Shown in pieces: positions 7,676 to 63,000 of a stretch of DNA of 64,000 nt. Location: positions 62,001 to 126,000 of the forward strand of contig JAQUPQ010000006.1 in NCBI GenBank assembly GCA_028716525.1, in the 5' to 3' direction. The notes beneath the pieces were generated by a model that was not told the origin of the DNA, searched no databases, and saw only the letters and a program-made list of their open reading frames with translations. The position numbers were made by a program, and so were the translations under genes. The stretch comes from Terriglobia bacterium. GTDB taxonomy: Bacteria > Acidobacteriota > Terriglobia > JAIQFV01. The stretch's first letter is position 1. The number at the start of each line of letters is the position of its first letter.

Positions 7676-8537
7676 TCCGGCCTCTCTGACATTCTCAACC
7701 TGGTCCCAGTTCGAAAATCCGTCCCCCAAGGAAGGTCCCCAAATTGAAACTCCGATTTGCGGGATTCTTTCCAGAATATCGCAATACGATACTTGATTTT
7801 TCTTGGGACGGGCATTCCGGTTGCCCCATTGCCAACAACGCTATTTTTTTCAATATGTTACTTGGCAATGACGATCTCCACCTGCCTTATCCGCGATGGA
7901 CACCCTAGCTAGGCGTTCGAAACCGCTATTAGTTTTTGAATATACTATTCCCAAAATTCATATTCAATCAACCGGACCGTTCTTGTCCGCTTTCCTAAAG
8001 ATTCTGAAGGTAGTTGTCTGAGGTCATGGCGACCGAAGGGTTTGCCGAATTTCCTTCGACACCTGTGAAAATCTCAAAAACAGTACATTGAAGGGCCATT
8101 CATCCCTATTGTGAGACAAGAATTTTCTCATTCTAAGTGACTTAAAGGCAATGTCTGGATTCGGTACGAAGATTGCTAGATATATCGTGTTCAGATACGA
8201 CTTTTCATATGCCAAAGGGCACGGTTGATTTACCGGTAAGAGCTCGGTTTGCAGAATTAATAGGCACGACGCAGGGTTGCTGGGTTGATCGACACATCAG
8301 GTTCCATCGGTTGCGCTTTCCCCTGAACGTCTTGTAGCAGTCATTCATTCGTAGCTTCGGCCAATCATAAAGTTTGGAAGAAGATATTTCAATCCCGGAC
8401 TCATGAGGACTTTTCGCTTTTCTCATCGGGCCTGAAGTCATTCGCACTTTCGATTGGGTAGGATTTCGGGGAAGGAAGTTTTCACAGTGAAAAGAACCAT
8501 CAACCATCAACACAACATTCAACAAGGAGAAAACACA
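7676..8537 (+). other. Long non-coding leader of the second TonB receptor
   Basis: About 860 bases with no gene that I can support. AT-rich segments lie at about 7780-7990. An in-frame extension of the downstream gene to 8454 exists but lacks a ribosome site. A weak hairpin CGAAGG / CCTTCG occurs near 8036-8060. Nothing else was recognised. Confidence 0.4.
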
Positions 8538-11500
8538 ATGTCAGGACAAAGGCGTTTTATTGTGCTGCTGACCCTGGTGATCCTGTTTACATTGGCCGTG
8601 ACCAGTTTGGCCATGGCCGATGAAATCACCGCCCGGATCCGCGGCACAATCACGGACCAATCCGGCGCCATCATTCCCGGCGCCAAGGTGACCGCCACCA
8701 ACACGGACACCGCGTTGAGCCGCGATACGACCTCGGGAAGCGACGGAACGTATGAGTTCCTGCAGCTCCCCGTCGGAAACTATAAAGTGTCTTCCGAGAA
8801 GTCGGGCTTCCGAACTTATACGGCCACGGGCATCAAGCTGGTGATCAACCAGATCTTGGTGTTGAACATCCCCATGGAAGTCGGCCAGGTGAGTCAGGAA
8901 GTTTCGGTGCAAGCCAACGCCGCGCAGGTGGAAACCACCAGCATTCAGCTGGGCACCGTCGTGACGGGCAGCACAATTGTGGACCTACCATTGAACGGTC
9001 GCAATTGGGTTCAACTGCAACAATTGCAACCGGGCGTGGTGGGCTCTTCGGATCGCTTCGGCAGCAACTTTGCCACCAATGGAAGCCAATCGCAGCAGAA
9101 CAGCTACATGATCAATGGAACCGACGCCAACGACATTCCTTTGAATACGCCGTTGGTGGTTCCGAGCCCTGATGCCATCGGGGAATTCCGCCTGGTCACC
9201 AATACCCTCAACCCGGAATATGGTCGAAACTCCGGAGGTATTTTGAACGCGGTGACGAAGTCAGGAACCAATCAATTTCACGGCAGCGCCTTTGAGTTCT
9301 TCCGCGATACGAGTTTGAACTCGCGCAACTTTTTTGCCAAGTCTGCGGTGATCTTCCATCAAAACCAGTTTGGCGGAACGATCGGTGGGCCGATCAAGAA
9401 GGATCACACCTTCTTCTTCGTGTCCTATCAGGGAACCTTTAACCGCATTCCTCAGGGCGTTGGAAATGCCAACGTGTTTACCAATGATGAAAGGAATGGA
9501 ATTTTTCCGAAATTGGCAGCATCGAACAACACTTCGCCCTTCCCGCTGAAAGGTGAGAATGGGACGATCTATCCGGCCGGGACACCGTATTCGACCATTT
9601 TCCCTACGGGTCACATCCCGTTGTCTGACTTCAATTCCATTTCGGCCAAATTGATGAATACCTTTGTGCCGCCGCCTAACAGCGGTCTCAGGTCGTTCTT
9701 GTTCAACCCCATCACGGTTGGGCACACGAACCAGTGGATTGCGCGCGTTGATCACAATATTAGCGCCAAAGACAATCTGTTCGTCAACTGGTTCTGGCAA
9801 ACCAACCCGAATGCCGACACATTGCCATTTACAGGTTCAAACCTGCCGGGATTCGGTGAGTTCGCGACACGTCATATTCAGCAGTACACGGCTGGATGGA
9901 CCCACATTATCAACGACCACATGCTGAATGAGGCACGGTTCGGCTACACGCGCTTCAACTTCTTGGCCGTTCAACCCACTAATCCGACCCTGCCGTCGTC
10001 CTTTGGATTCCAGATCAATCCGAATAACACTTCGGGTGCGGGACTTCCCGTGATTGCTGTGACCGGATTGTTCACCTTGGGATTCTCAGACAACGGTCCG
10101 CAACCCCGCATCGACCAGACTTATGAAGCGACCGACAACTTCACCTGGACGGTGGGCAAGCATGCGCTGAAGTTCGGGTTTGACATGCGTCGCTTCCAAG
10201 TGGCTAATCCGTTCTTCTTCTTGAACGGCGGACACTTTGACTTTGGCGGCAACGGCAGTTTCTCCACAGGAGTGCCGGGCGCCGATTTCCTGCTGGGAAT
10301 TCCCGATGATTTCTCTCAGGGCAGCGGCGATTTCATTGATGCCAGGGCGCAACAGTATTACACCTATGCTCAGGATCAGTGGAAGATCCGCCCGAACTTG
10401 ACCATCACCTACGGTGTCGGTTGGCAGATTGACACGCCCATGAATGACGTTGCGCACAACGGCAATGCCACCGTGGCTTTCCGCCCCGGACAACAGTCGA
10501 CGCTGTTCCCCACCGCTCCAAAGGGTTACGTCTTTTCGGGCGCCGACGTCAACAATGCTGCCGGCTCTACCTACTACGGGCAGTTCGGACCCCGCGCTGG
10601 ATTCGCGTGGAGCCCGGATTGGGGCTGGCTCTCTGGCGGTCCCGGCAAGTTGAGCATTCGGGCGGGCTACGGGATTTACTTCAACCGTTCGGAAGAGGAA
10701 ATGACCCTGCAATTCCTGGCGTCGCCTCCGTTCGGATTGGCCTCGACGGCTATCGGAGACGTAGGCGGGAGTCCCTCTTTCGCGAATCCGTTCTGCGATA
10801 TTAGCGGCGCGGGGTGCATCCCCAACAAATTCCCGTTCAGTGCTCCAGCGGCCGGAAGCAAAATAGACTTCGGCTTCTTCGAGCCGCTCAGCATCAGCAC
10901 GCTGGATCCCAACTTCCGCAGCCCGTACGCGGAAAACTATAACCTGACCGTGGAACGGGAACTTCCTTCCAGCATGATTTTTTCGCTCGCCTATGTCGGC
11001 TCGGTGGCACACAAACTGAGCGTTGAAACCGAAAGCAATCCGAACATCAACGTTGCGGCATGTGCGGCCAATCCCACCTGCGTGAAGTTCCGTTCAATTC
11101 AGAACATCGTCTTTCCGAACCACTACAAGTTCCCGGGCGATGTTTTTGGATCGGTCGGCACCATCACCAGTGCCGGGAACTCGAACTACAACTCGCTGCA
11201 GGCCCGCTTGGACAAGCACTTCTCGAACGGTATGCAGTTCTTGGCGTCGTACACTTGGGCGCACTCCATCGACAACGGTTCCGGCTTTGAGAACTCCGGA
11301 TTCGGCGGTGGGCGTGGACCCGGCATGGATCCCTTCAATTTCAACCGCAATCACGGGGATTCTTCTTTCGATGCCCGGCAACGGTTCGTGTTCAGCTATG
11401 TGTACGCCATTCCGAGCGTTCGGAAGTTCTCGGCCTTCTCTCGATGGCCCAGCCGCTTGACCGACGGATGGAGAATCACCGGTATTACCACCTTCCAGAC

Positions 11501-11939
11501 CGGATTCCCATTCAACCCCACCCAGAGTGGGCGCTCCTCGCTGCAGTGCACGGTCTTCACGTTCTACAGTTGTCCGGACCGTCCGAACGTGGCAGGACCT
11601 GCGCCGACACTGGATCCTCGGAGCGCTACCTTTAACGGCTTGAGCAATTACTGGTTCAATCCGGCTGCCTTTTCGGCCGAAGCGATTGGCACGATCGGAA
11701 ACGCCGCCCGCGGCGTACTCCACGGACCGGGTGTCAACCAGTTTGACTTTGCGCTGTTCAAGGACACCAAAATCACCGAAGGAACCAGTGTGGAAATGCG
11801 CTTTGAATTCTTCAACGTCTTCAACCACACGCAATTCGGACAGCCCTCCAACAACTTCAATTCACCGTCGACCTTTGGCCGCATCTTCAGCGCGGCTGAT
11901 CCGCGGTTGATTCAGTTGGGGCTCAAGATTTATTTCTAG
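8538..11939 (+). CDS. TonB-dependent receptor, Oar-like, second copy
   Basis: 1133 residues from ATG 8538. This start was preferred over an in-frame start at 8454 because AACAAGGAGAAAACACA precedes it and a clean signal peptide follows at once (cleavage near AMA-DE, about residue 27). Domains: carboxypeptidase-regulatory domain at about 30-115 (IRGTITDQSGAIIPGAKV), plug at about 125-260 (NPEYGRNSGGILNAVTKSG), large beta-barrel to the C-terminal Phe (LGLKIYF). Same architecture as the receptor at 4384, but the barrels differ clearly in sequence, so it is a paralogue and not a recent duplicate. Substrate unknown; uptake of a large or scarce compound is inferred from the family. It ends at a very strong terminator. 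Confidence 0.93.
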   Translation: MSGQRRFIVLLTLVILFTLAVTSLAMADEITARIRGTITDQSGAIIPGAKVTATNTDTALSRDTTSGSDGTYEFLQLPVGNYKVSSEKSGFRTYTATGIKLVINQILVLNIPMEVGQVSQEVSVQANAAQVETTSIQLGTVVTGSTIVDLPLNGRNWVQLQQLQPGVVGSSDRFGSNFATNGSQSQQNSYMINGTDANDIPLNTPLVVPSPDAIGEFRLVTNTLNPEYGRNSGGILNAVTKSGTNQFHGSAFEFFRDTSLNSRNFFAKSAVIFHQNQFGGTIGGPIKKDHTFFFVSYQGTFNRIPQGVGNANVFTNDERNGIFPKLAASNNTSPFPLKGENGTIYPAGTPYSTIFPTGHIPLSDFNSISAKLMNTFVPPPNSGLRSFLFNPITVGHTNQWIARVDHNISAKDNLFVNWFWQTNPNADTLPFTGSNLPGFGEFATRHIQQYTAGWTHIINDHMLNEARFGYTRFNFLAVQPTNPTLPSSFGFQINPNNTSGAGLPVIAVTGLFTLGFSDNGPQPRIDQTYEATDNFTWTVGKHALKFGFDMRRFQVANPFFFLNGGHFDFGGNGSFSTGVPGADFLLGIPDDFSQGSGDFIDARAQQYYTYAQDQWKIRPNLTITYGVGWQIDTPMNDVAHNGNATVAFRPGQQSTLFPTAPKGYVFSGADVNNAAGSTYYGQFGPRAGFAWSPDWGWLSGGPGKLSIRAGYGIYFNRSEEEMTLQFLASPPFGLASTAIGDVGGSPSFANPFCDISGAGCIPNKFPFSAPAAGSKIDFGFFEPLSISTLDPNFRSPYAENYNLTVERELPSSMIFSLAYVGSVAHKLSVETESNPNINVAACAANPTCVKFRSIQNIVFPNHYKFPGDVFGSVGTITSAGNSNYNSLQARLDKHFSNGMQFLASYTWAHSIDNGSGFENSGFGGGRGPGMDPFNFNRNHGDSSFDARQRFVFSYVYAIPSVRKFSAFSRWPSRLTDGWRITGITTFQTGFPFNPTQSGRSSLQCTVFTFYSCPDRPNVAGPAPTLDPRSATFNGLSNYWFNPAAFSAEAIGTIGNAARGVLHGPGVNQFDFALFKDTKITEGTSVEMRFEFFNVFNHTQFGQPSNNFNSPSTFGRIFSAADPRLIQLGLKIYF

Positions 11940-11961: not shown

Positions 11962-11997
11962 GCTCCGGTCCCGCAAGGCGGGACCGGAGCTTTTTTT
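11962..11997 (+). terminator. Rho-independent terminator after the second TonB receptor
   Basis: A perfect 13-pair stem GCTCCGGTCCCGC / GCGGGACCGGAGC with a 3-base loop is followed by seven T. Confidence 0.95.
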
Positions 11998-12007
11998 ATG
12001 GCGGTTC

Positions 12008-12539
12008 GGGGGTTTGGTATGTGTAAAAAACGGACGTCTCGGAAATTGTGGGCGTCGTTCAAAAGGGAAAAGAGTCTCCATCCGGCCGTTCGCTTAAAAC
12101 CAGTCCGCCTTGAGCGGACGGGATAATCGAAGTCCGGCCCTGCGCGACGCAAGCTTGCCTCAGTGCAAGCCCGATTTATCGGGCTGAAATAATCGTAGCC
12201 TGAGGCGTAAGCCTCAGGGATCGGCGAGGTAGAGAACAGTTAAGCCCCTTTGAGGGGGCGACAGAGAGCTGTGCACAATTCGTTTTTGGGTTCCCGGATT
12301 GTTCTTCGAGATTACTCCGCAGTTGAGGGGGTTGCAGAATTTCGTTATGTCGCCCCCTCCAGGGGGCTCATATCTGCTTCGGTGGTGCACCCGTACCTGA
12401 GGCTTACGCCTCAGGCTACGGTCATCCCGTCCGCACAAGGCGGACTGCCTTTAAGCAATCGGCTGGGTGCGGAGTCTTGTACCTTTGAACGATGCGCATA
12501 ATTTCTGGAAGTGCTCTATCTTTACGCACACCAACCCCC
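12008..12539. repeat. Diverged large inverted repeat in a convergent intergenic region
   Basis: Two related arms face each other: about 12008-12266 and, in reverse complement, about 12539-12343, around a centre of about 76 bases. Shared blocks in order include GTTCAAA(A/G)G, a GACTCC/GTCTCC block, CAGTCCGCCTTG(A/T)GCGGACGG, CGTAGCCTGAGGCGTAAGCC and a (G)GAGGGGGCGACA block. The left arm carries 66 extra bases (12130-12195) bounded by direct ATAATCG copies (12123-12129 and 12189-12195). The extra piece contains its own small palindromes (CCCGATTTATCGGG). No coding region is inside. Confidence 0.85.
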
Positions 12540-12610
12540 AAAGTGTTTTTCGTATTTCGAAGTTGAATGGAAGAGTGGGAGAAGCGATAAGCCGGGCGGA
12601 TGGATCACGC

Positions 12611-13474
12611 TCACAGTGTTTTTTGCACCAGACGAATCTGAAAAATCTTGGGCCAGAGTTTTCCGGTAACGATCAAGCGGTCTCGAGCAGCGTCGTAGGC
12701 AATCCCGTTCAGTACATCCACCGGCCGTGTTCGGTCCGCAGGCGACAACAGCCCCGTCAGATCAATCCATCCCCGCACTTTCCCATTGGCGGGATCAATT
12801 CGAACCATATAATTGCTCTCGTAGACATTGGCAAGAATCTCGCCCTGGATGTATTCCAGTTCGTTCAGATTCTGAACCGGAGTTCCATCGCTCAAAACGG
12901 AAATGGTTTGCCGTACTTCGAAGCTCTTGGGGTCGAGAAACCGGATTTGATTCGTTCCATCGCTCATGATCAAATTTTGGGCATCATGGGTCAGGCCCCA
13001 GCCTTCCCCCACATAGGAAAACCCTCCAATCTTTTTGAAATCTTCGACTTGATAGATAAAGCCCTTGTGGTTCTGCCAGGTCAGTTGGAAGATCTGGCCT
13101 CCAAAAACCGTAATTCCCTCCCCAAAATACTCGGAGCTCAAATCGATTTTTCTGAGCACGCGCCCCGACCCCAAATCAACCTCGCGTAGGCTGGACTGCC
13201 CATTCAATCCCGTACCTTCAAACAACCTTCCGTCGTAAAATTCCAATCCTTGAGTATACGCCGAGGTATCGTGAGGCCAAGTCGTAATGACCTGGTACGT
13301 GTAATAACGAACGCCGCTACCGGCGGGGATTGGGGGGATAGATTTCTGTCCTAAGGATGTCTCCGGTTGACTCCGCGGGTTACTTCCGCAACACACCAGA
13401 GCTCCCCAAGCACAAACCACCAAAAAGAACCGCAGAGTTGAGAAGTTCGAAAAAACCGATTTTTCGGGTTTCAT
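12611..13474 (-). CDS. Glutaminyl-peptide cyclotransferase (plant/bacterial beta-propeller type)
   Basis: Converts N-terminal glutamine of peptides to pyroglutamate; an exported enzyme. 287 residues: hydrophobic leader at about 12-30 ending in Cys-Cys, so it may be either a cleaved signal or a lipoprotein anchor (the lipobox is imperfect). The family body follows, with the hallmark segments HDTSAYTQGLEF, FEGTGLNGQSSLREVDL, FGEGITVF, LTW, GEGWGLTHD, SDGTNQIRFLDP, LNELEYI and VLNGIAYD in the expected order for the five-bladed propeller. The gene is convergent with the TonB receptor and divergent from fumC. Length is usual for the family. No operon partner. Confidence 0.9.
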   Translation of the reverse strand: MKPEKSVFSNFSTLRFFLVVCAWGALVCCGSNPRSQPETSLGQKSIPPIPAGSGVRYYTYQVITTWPHDTSAYTQGLEFYDGRLFEGTGLNGQSSLREVDLGSGRVLRKIDLSSEYFGEGITVFGGQIFQLTWQNHKGFIYQVEDFKKIGGFSYVGEGWGLTHDAQNLIMSDGTNQIRFLDPKSFEVRQTISVLSDGTPVQNLNELEYIQGEILANVYESNYMVRIDPANGKVRGWIDLTGLLSPADRTRPVDVLNGIAYDAARDRLIVTGKLWPKIFQIRLVQKTL

Positions 13475-60070: not shown

Positions 60071-63000
60071 TTAATCCAGGCGATGTCCCCAAAGCCATCG
60101 CTGGCGCGTGAAGAGAAAAACAGATCGATCGCTTCCACCCGTGACAAGCCGCCGGCCATCCGGCGAGTAGGCCACAGCCAGGACCGGGGCATGGGGCGTG
60201 CCAATGCGCGTGATCAAGGACCGTCGGCGCACACTCCACACGGCGATCATGCCGTCGTCGCCTGCGGAGGACACTTCACGGCCATCGGGAGAAAAACTGA
60301 CCGCCTTGACCCGAGCCGTGTGTCGTCCCAAAACCCCCAGTTCCCGCAATGGAGATACGCTCCACAATCGTACCAAACCGCTGTCTTCCACGGTGACAAA
60401 TTGTTTTCCATCCGGAGAAAAGCTGACGGCAATCAACTGCATCCCTTTTAACTGCGTTCGTCCGAGGATCTTCCAAGTCTGCGCGTCCGCCAGTCCAACC
60501 GTTCCCTGGTCCGTGACGCAAACAAAAAGCCGCCCGTCGTCCGTGAAGTCCATGCCGTAAATGTGCCCCCGGTCCAATTCCGGCTTATTCGTCAGATCCA
60601 GAACGCATCGTTGCGTGCGGGGATCATAAATACAGTTCGTCGAGGCCACCCAACGGCCGTCCGGAGAAACCGCCACGGCATAGCTGGCCGAAACCCCGCC
60701 CGAGGAGTCCCGGTAACGAAAAGTTTCGGAGGCTTGACCACTCTTCAAATCCCAAAGAATGACAACGCCATCTTGATCACACGACGCCAACCAGGTGTCA
60801 TCCGAGGAAAAAGATAGGGCGGTCACGCGGGTCTGATGCCCGAGCAACACCGATGCTTTTTTAAGGCTCGCCGCATCCCACAAAATGATGGACCCGTCAT
60901 CGCCGGCTGAAGCAATCCATCGACCTTGATTGGAAAAGCTCACGGCGCGGACCGCACCGCTGTGCTCGTTGAGATTGGCGGCCAGCCCCCGCTCTGAAAC
61001 GTCCCAAATCAAAATTGCACCGTCACCGTGGGTTGAAACCAGCCATCGACCGTCCGGGGAAAAGGTCAGGCTCCAGACAATGGCGGCGTGCTCCAACCGG
61101 GCCAGCTTGGTGTGATGGACGGCATCCCAAAGGACGATATCTTCCGCTCCGGTGGCGGCAAGTCGTCCGTCGGGTGAATAGGCGGTGGCCCGGCCGTGAT
61201 CTCGATGGACTTGGTACAAATCGGTCACGTGCCGGGGCAGAAACATTCCTGGTTTATCCAAATTCCAAAAGGCTACGGCTCCGACAGAATCGATGCTCAA
61301 TAGATGACGTTGGTCCCTGGACATGGTCGCCCAATTCATTCCGGGCTTGCTGAACTCTTGCAGAAGCCGATTCTGGGGAATATCCCAAACGGCTCCGGCC
61401 GGATACAACACCTGGTCGCCTCGAGCTGAGAAGAGCATCGAACCGTAGCCGACCCCCAGGGGGTAGGCCGCGATTTCTTTCCAACTCCCCACTTCCCAGA
61501 CCACCGTTCGTTTCGCAATAGCACCCAACTTTCGGCCATCTTCGGAGAAGGACACAGCGGCGACTTCTCCCCCCGGCCTTGAAAGCTCCGCGACCTGCCT
61601 GAAATCCCCGGCATTCCACACGATCACCCTCTGATCCAATCCGCCGGTGGCGATCCACCGGCCATCCGGAGAAACCGCACAGGTGGTGACCCATCCTCGG
61701 TGAGCCGTGAGCGTCGCCACCCGCTGGCGATGGACAAAATCCCACACAATGACTTTTCCATCTTCCCCGCAGGAGATGAGACGTTGGCCATCCGGTGTAA
61801 AAACAGCCCGGCGAACGGCCGCTGTGTGTCCATCGGTCAAACGGGTTCCCTCCCACGATTCGTTGATTGAAAAAAAACTCGTGGCGGTTACCGCCAGAAC
61901 AAGAAAAACAATGAACAGCCCGGTCACGTTCAACACTCCGCGGCGCCAGCTCTGTCGCACCAGTTTTTGCTCGCGGGCATTCCAGATGTGATCGGCATAG
62001 CGTCGGATGGACCACAGCTTGGTCAGCGGAATGCGGGTCCGGCTGTCGACTTGATATTCAGAAAAGTAGCGTCGAAACAAACGGTTCGCCCGCTGGGCTG
62101 CATCCATCATTTTGCCGGTGACTCGATTGATGCGCTCGATTAGATACTCGTGCATCAATTCGTAACGCCATGGCTCTTCCTCCTGAACTTCATGAATCAA
62201 CCGCGCCGCCACGAATGCTTCCAGAATGGATTTAATCTCGGCCGCCGGGCGTTGCGTACGGCGGGCAATTTCGTCCAACGGCAGGGTCAGGCGGGTGTTT
62301 TCATCGGAAATTAGACATCGAAGCAACAATTGGGCGGTGTCCCGATCACCGACCATTTGAATGACGTCCTCCAAGTAGCCGTGCAGGAGTTGTTCCTCGC
62401 CGCCGGCGCGTAGATAATCGGAATTGGTAAAAATCCGCTTTCGCTGCAATTGCTCTCCGACAATTTGAAGCTCCGAAGGAAGGACGGCGCCGTTCTCGGC
62501 CAAATCATGGGCCACATGCTGGCCGAGCCCGTCCTCGAAAGGAAGATCAGCCCGCCGGGCGGAACGGTCGATGACTTCAGCCGCCTGCATCACCCCGAAA
62601 TTCTGCAAATGATATAACCGCGACGCGCCCAAGGGTTCAGGCACGCGGTCGGTAAAGGCGGTGCTGATCAGATGCAAGAAATCACTGCGAAGAGAGAACA
62701 GAATCTTTATGGATCCCGCAGCCGCCGTTTGGCACCGCTGCACAAAGGCAACAAAGGGCTCACGGGCTTGAGGTGATTTGTAGGCGACGAAAAATTCTTC
62801 AAATTGATCGAACAGGAGGACCAACGGGGCATCCAAAGTCTTCGACACGCGGCTCAGATAGGAGTCCACTTCTTCGGAATTCTTCCGCCCCTCGCCGGTG
62901 CGGCGCTGACATTCATCGCCAATGGCTCTCAGTGGATCCTTATACGATCGACAATAGAGCGGCAGGAATCCGGTCTTCCATAATCGGGGTATCAAACCTG

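Follow-up and report, generated by a model that had tools for sequence, protein, structure and literature searches.

A foldback, MITE-like element carrying paired REP palindromes in a Terriglobia genome, probably a RAYT-less derivative of a RAYT/REP unit with inverted ends

RAYTs are regarded as genes that stay in place while their REPs spread. The described systems closest to the locus reported here are: (i) the REPtron, i.e., REP, REPIN or BIME repeats with a RAYT, which (PMC3116915; passages of PMC3733652 and PMC6006769) has GTAG-footed palindromes in inverted pairs, a GTAG at the palindrome foot being given as the hallmark of RAYT-associated REPs (PMC3733652, PMC6006769); (ii) the TIRtron or TIRYT (PMC3733652; subclass 2.1 in PMC6006769), reported in passages of these papers from a defined group of Acidobacteria, with Y1 transposase genes between long inverted repeats that are dispersed in the genome; (iii) GTAG-15 of Anabaena variabilis, which a passage of PMC3733652 presents as a REP dimer within a longer palindromic sequence; (iv) bacterial MITEs, which are short, non-coding and multicopy, with inverted ends and a flanking duplication; and (v) the "Acido-Lenti-1 RNA" (Rfam RF01687), annotated as an sRNA (table entry for Weinberg et al., 2010, PMC2864571), whose Rfam consensus reads hairpin-CUA-spacer-hairpin, i.e., a TAG-footed hairpin on the opposite strand.

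The present locus shares traits with each of them. It has the inverted pair of GTAG-footed palindromes of the REPtron, and matching palindromes are arrayed around a RAYT gene of the same genome, but the pair is enclosed by a larger element, which has inverted ends and is flanked by a duplication, an arrangement that differs from the REPtrons of the cited passages. As in TIRtrons, Y1 transposase sequence occurs between inverted repeats; however, the end sequence is another one, REPs are present, a duplication and empty sites are demonstrated, and the copies in the genome studied carry no gene. For GTAG-15 the source passage gives a short flanking palindrome and states neither ends nor a duplication, whereas the elements described here, 88–838 bp long, have common 24-bp ends. 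The difference from bacterial MITEs lies in the interior, which consists of REP units, and in the partner transposase, none with the same ends having been found in our search for the ISL3 profile. The REP unit has the layout of RF01687 (hairpin, CUA, spacer, second hairpin), but where that family is annotated as an sRNA, the unit here behaves as a RAYT-associated DNA repeat.

The window analyzed is a 64,000-nucleotide stretch (positions 62001–126000 of contig C6) of a 4.2-Mb genome (G000), which was compared with a same-family genome of the sister genus (G002) and with a sister species of the latter (G001). Window positions 12002–12545 are a single 544-bp foldback element, non-autonomous and MITE-like; these limits, based on end motifs and flank comparison, lie somewhat beyond those of the original prediction (12008–12539). 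The element is situated between a plus-strand gene (8454–11939), which from its translation we take to encode a TonB-receptor-like protein, and an oppositely oriented gene for a 287-aa protein (12611–13474). It directly follows a terminator-like hairpin with a T-run (11962–11999; arms 11962–11974 and 11978–11990), and the left candidate duplication overlaps this T-run. The proposed comparison with relatives lacking the element could be carried through on one side: the right-hand genes (the 287-aa protein and its fumarase-like neighbor) are conserved at this locus in G001 and G002, and by eye no element copy was seen beside them; the junction itself could not be aligned, because the left neighbor differs and is not conserved. 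The following features were distinguished:

11991–11999, plus strand: left candidate target-site duplication, TTTTTTTAT, agreeing with its right-hand counterpart at 7 of 9 positions (flank comparison)
12002–12545, no strand: whole MITE-like element, 544 bp, A-type ends on both sides (end motifs, flank comparison, homologous copies)
12002–12025, plus strand: left outer terminal inverted repeat (flank comparison; by-eye alignment to A-outer ends of other copies)
12034–12057, plus strand: left inner terminal repeat, in tandem, 32 bp further in (by-eye comparison with family ends)
12101–12121, plus strand: REP-type palindrome CAGTCCGCCTTGAGCGGACGG (same palindrome in the RAYT array on contig C37)
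12123–12195, plus strand: B-arm segment, i.e., the 66-bp piece and two ATAATCG copies (sequence, copy alignment)
12167–12218, minus strand: REP unit and sub-threshold RF01687 match, 29.1 bits (Rfam model)
12168–12185: palindrome AGCCCGATTTATCGGGCT inside the B-arm segment
12195–12218, plus strand: GTAG foot and palindrome CCTGAGGCGTAAGCCTCAGG (REP) (sequence; C37 array)
12243–12368, no strand: central stem-loop, arms 12243–12263 and 12348–12368
12396–12430, plus strand: second, inverted REP unit and sub-threshold RF01687 match, 25.7 bits
12490–12513, minus strand: right inner terminal repeat (end-motif matrix, L210 position 1492, 25.7 bits)
12522–12545, minus strand: right outer terminal inverted repeat (end-motif matrix, L210 position 1524, 24.8 bits)
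12547–12555, plus strand: right candidate target-site duplication, TTTTCGTAT (flank comparison)

The two related, facing arms described in the original prediction are real: 12062–12132 and 12416–12486 are 79% complementary over 71 nt, and 12042–12063 and 12484–12505 are 86% complementary over 22 nt. Its ATAATCG pair was likewise located, at 12123–12129 and 12189–12195 (spaced 66 bp), and its palindromes occur as described, each twice: CCTGAGGCnTAnGCCTCAGG, allowing up to 3 mismatches, only at 12199–12218 and 12396–12415 (2 matches vs. 0.03 expected), and CAGTCCGCCTTGWGCGGAC only at 12101–12119 and 12429–12447 (2 matches vs. 0.05 expected). The second REP unit starts with the palindrome at 12396–12415, followed by CTAC and then by palindrome GTCCGCACAAGGCGGAC (12429–12445). 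The predicted fold of the strand has an energy of −303 kcal/mol, compared with −193 ± 6 kcal/mol for shuffled sequences (z −17.7; 0 of 100 shuffles as stable). In the A-type arms (12002–12057 and 12490–12545) the terminal repeat is doubled in tandem with a spacing of 32 bp, which perhaps reflects two binding sites or a nested insertion.

A search of G000 with a 541-bp element query gave 98 matches (E ≤ 10) of two sorts. More than a single palindrome was matched at 10 places, including the window (contigs C6, C78, C35, C28, C17, C11, C20, C22, C73 and C5), mostly with 75–85% identity, while dozens of places match just one 25–50-bp REP unit. Partial copies on C16 and C41 were added with a consensus query, and copies other than that of the window are found at approximately 11 places in G000. 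The genome-wide search suggested in the original prediction has shown the arm sequence to be multi-copy, and the single-copy state that would have spoken against that prediction does not apply.

Alignment of 10 G000 copies, including that of the window, revealed an asymmetric family, in which arm A carries a GTCCGC palindrome and arm B the AGCCCGATTTATCGGGCT palindrome. The 66-bp segment (containing GCAAGCCCGATTTATCGGGCTGAAATAATCGTAGCC), originally interpreted as a piece inserted into the left arm, is present in the left arm of five of the nine other aligned copies, the remaining four having no alignable left arm at this position; it is a segment of the arm and not an insertion into it. The window copy is without approximately 67 bp of the family core near 12346 and is a chimera with A-type ends on both sides and an inner B-type segment on the left. 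At the lower end of the length range, the 88-bp minimal element of L131 (G002:C20, 1437–1524) is barely more than two facing terminal repeats. An element is found beside the same gene in both sister species, in L189 (G002:C22, 2931–3704; 774 bp, with tandemly repeated right ends) and in L209 (G001:C25, 1342–1524; 183 bp), apparently at one and the same site. The element copy of L034 (G000:C17) has a REP-like mosaic of another kind (GGGGCTTGCGCCCCGGGCTAC, TCCCTGCGGGACTGGAGCGAAGCGATCGTTCAAT; 880–1065) directly beside it, and one dispersed repeat of approximately 250 bp, recognized by eye and unrelated to the element, is present in G002 in both L240 (1080–1340) and L133 (1670–1940).

The outermost conserved motif, of approximately 24 bp and CACTTCCGGAAATTGTGTGCGTCG-like, is found at both ends and faces inward, and such terminal inverted repeats are common to the dispersed copies, as in MITEs; at 6 of 9 G000 loci, the A arms carry the motif as a tandem pair, 31–32 bp apart. 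With 3 mismatches the end pattern occurs 6 times in G000, once in G001 and 9 times in G002, and is absent from G003, with no matches to the reversed-pattern controls; a looser pattern gave 11, 6 and 29 matches, vs. 2, 4 and 6 for controls. Of 297 genomes drawn from the phylum (G001 and G002 not among them), only that of the window itself contains the motif at up to 2 mismatches. Within 400 kb of control sequence, four sites score at least 17 on the end matrix, all of them in the L189 stretch, which also contains the sole RAYT trace of the control sequence.

The flanking 7-, 8- and 9-mers of 11 two-ended elements (window included) were compared with those of mismatched pairs. The 9-mers have a mean best match of 6.45 of 9 positions, vs. 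4.62 for mismatched pairs, and for 7, 8 and 9 bp alike 0 of 5000 permutations was as good. One of the 11 elements, on C35, has a perfect 9-bp duplication (CAACACAAG / CAACACAAG), and the A/T-rich duplication of the window copy (TTTTTTTAT / TTTTCGTAT) is 7/9 identical. At the family level, insertion occurs at A/T-rich sites and leaves a duplication of roughly 9 bp. Moreover, for the G002 elements on C52 and C57, G001 has the two flanks side by side and no element between them. The inverted ends, duplications and empty sites are the marks of transposition by inverted ends. A candidate empty site on C20 was set aside, as the alignment across its junction was merely loose. These observations, together with the dispersed copies, bear out the non-autonomous repeat family of the original prediction, but not its insertion in both orientations, since both arms belong to one element, as its two ends.

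The ends of the element presumably resemble those of ISL3 elements. ISL3 was rejected as the partner family, with its transposase profile (PF01610) present in 0 of 4 genomes, and a DDE transposase with these ends was not found in this search, which covered profile PF01610 in these four genomes. The proposed search for a cognate transposase was successful with respect to the REPs. The RAYT gene of contig C37 (PF01797, 94 bits) is intact, its reading frame being open, and is flanked by tandem CCTGAGGC REP units composed of a GGGGC palindrome, ATAATCGTAG, CCTGAGGCGTAAGCCTCAGG and then CAGTCCGCC..GGCGGAC; the palindromes of the window are the same blocks as the REPs of this array. A GTAG foot with a GC-rich imperfect palindrome, dispersed in the genome, is what characterizes REPs and REPINs and is present here; the two GTAG feet in the window point outward, as in REPINs, an arrangement termed head-head in a passage of PMC3733652. 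The interior of the element is an inverted pair of GTAG-footed REP palindromes. Scanning the genome contigs with the C37 RAYT yielded five distant relatives only.

When 21 RAYT sequences, trimmed to the domain, were compared with 26 end-bearing loci, RAYT sequence was found inside the ends at 10 of the 26 loci and outside them at none (Fisher P 3e-4). L133 (= L194) and L129 were dropped from this count, because their RAYT matches fall mainly on the beginning of the L098 reading frame, which is encoded by a REP. All 10 positive loci are among the 16 of G002, with 0 of 9 in G000 and 0 of 1 in G001; nine of them contain fragments of one lineage, nearest L098, in C/D-type elements. L127 (with L076) has an open, intact RAYT frame near one A-type end, its second end not having been found, and RAYT remnants lie between two ends in L211, L138, L189 and L205. 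None of the 26 loci combines an intact RAYT with both ends of an element. In G002, RAYT genes or remnants of them, along with RF01687-type REPs, lie between the inverted ends of this family. A good end motif was found at none of the 10 G000 RAYT loci (L140–L149; best score 14.5). Since the G000 elements are RAYT-free and the G000 RAYT loci lack a good end motif, the link with RAYTs rests on the sister genus, and a RAYT-bearing form is presumed for the lineage of the window. An open-frame RAYT surrounded by ten RF01687-type REP units is located in L098 / L159 (G002:C99, approximately 1–2900), likely the source lineage of the remnants in the C/D elements.

Both REP units of the window match RF01687 below its gathering score (29.1 and 25.7 bits vs. 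37). Of 906 candidates in G000, 150 were scored and gave 79 RF01687 matches. Of these, 21 are located no more than 1 kb from a RAYT gene, at 5 of the 10 such genes (0.44 expected), a proximity for which the Poisson P is descriptive only, as tandem arrays make the matches non-independent. Overall, RF01687 was detected beside 17 of 38 RAYT loci (L049, L050, L052, L053, L054, L056, L076, L078, L098, L167, L075, L077, L081, L082, L083, L095 and L097), comprising 10 of 18 from G000–G003 and 7 of 20 from other families of the class; for named genomes it was found at 1 of 5 RAYT loci, approximately 1.5 kb away. Three 20-kb control stretches (60 kb, treated as 18 blocks in the Fisher test) contained none. 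RAYTs with RF01687 on both sides mostly have a minus-strand match upstream and a plus-strand match downstream, the exceptions being extra plus-strand upstream matches in L075, L083 and L098; this is the classical arrangement, in which inverted REPs flank a RAYT. Element loci contain RF01687 in 4 of 9 cases at E ≤ 0.05 (L138, L205, L211 and L201). Given its presence at 17 of 38 RAYT loci and its absence from the 60-kb control, this "RNA" looks like RAYT-associated REP DNA, and RF01687 is probably such DNA largely, perhaps wholly. No published link between RF01687 and RAYTs was found in the literature searched, at the level of listings and passages.

In our view, the window element probably derives from a RAYT/REP element with inverted ends by loss of the RAYT, and would have been mobilized in trans by a transposase, itself probably of the DDE type. 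Several other readings were weighed against this one. A structured, Acido-Lenti-1-like RNA, conserved for its fold and not mobile, could account for the two RF01687 matches and the very stable predicted fold, yet both matches are under the gathering score, RF01687, for its part, is concentrated at RAYT genes as inverted flanking pairs, and the copies of the element family are scattered and diverged and show duplications and empty sites, all of which makes this reading very improbable. That one repeat was inserted twice, independently and in opposite orientations, is hardly credible: the 79–86% complementarity of the arms would fit, but the other copies are one unit in the order end-core-end, with inverted ends and flanking duplications.

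The remaining readings concern the RAYT. The RAYT itself (Y1/HUH) might recognize the inverted ends and move the whole unit without a DDE enzyme, as in TIRtrons, whose Y1 genes and long inverted repeats are known, according to a passage of PMC3733652, from a defined acidobacterial group; the restriction of RAYT sequence to the inside of the ends would be expected in this case. We regard it as improbable, because the flanking duplication is not expected of IS200/IS605-type enzymes (passage of PMC2817692), the RAYTs in the elements resemble ordinary REP-flanked RAYTs, and the GGGGWSAS motif, reported for most TIRtrons in passages of PMC3733652 and PMC6006769, is by eye not in these ends. Somewhat unlikely, in our view, is that chance insertions brought REPs and, in a single lineage, a RAYT/REP cassette into an ordinary MITE family, with the RAYT a mere passenger and no RAYT-bearing unit in the ancestry of the window element. 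It is consistent with the lack of a RAYT trace in all nine G000 element loci and with REPs known elsewhere inside longer palindromes (passage of PMC3733652), but REPs are present in both main element types (A/B and C/D), and RAYTs of two lineages (L076 and L098) occur near or within the ends.

Under the preferred reading, a RAYT-less derivative of a RAYT/REP element, the ancestral unit would have been TIR-REP-RAYT-REP-TIR, the window element being its RAYT-deleted form, and loss of the RAYT would leave miniature foldback elements of 88–838 bp. Whole units may move at their inverted ends, in trans, by a transposase most likely of the DDE type, which is favored because Y1/HUH enzymes leave no duplication, while the RAYT would separately process the internal REPs, not the ends. 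The long foldback would be a by-product of the inverted ends and paired REPs and not a selected RNA.

Overall, the element is mostly an ordinary object, a MITE-like repeat. Two points are less ordinary: DDE-style ends that enclose a REP/RAYT cargo, and an Rfam sRNA family that should likely be reassigned to REP DNA. A tentative, more far-reaching reading is a mobile REPtron, in which an HUH/Y1 RAYT and its REPs would be the cargo of a transposon with DDE-style ends, RAYT-less miniature forms like the window element would be left behind, and Acido-Lenti-1 would be the REP DNA of the RAYTs of these bacteria, not an RNA family. REP/RAYT cassettes inside units with inverted ends, duplications and empty sites would provide a route for the spread of REPtrons within and between genomes. 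As RF01687 is linked to RAYTs, the matches that carry an sRNA annotation in these genomes probably represent mobile DNA repeats, and their apparent RNA structure would probably stem from palindromic DNA.
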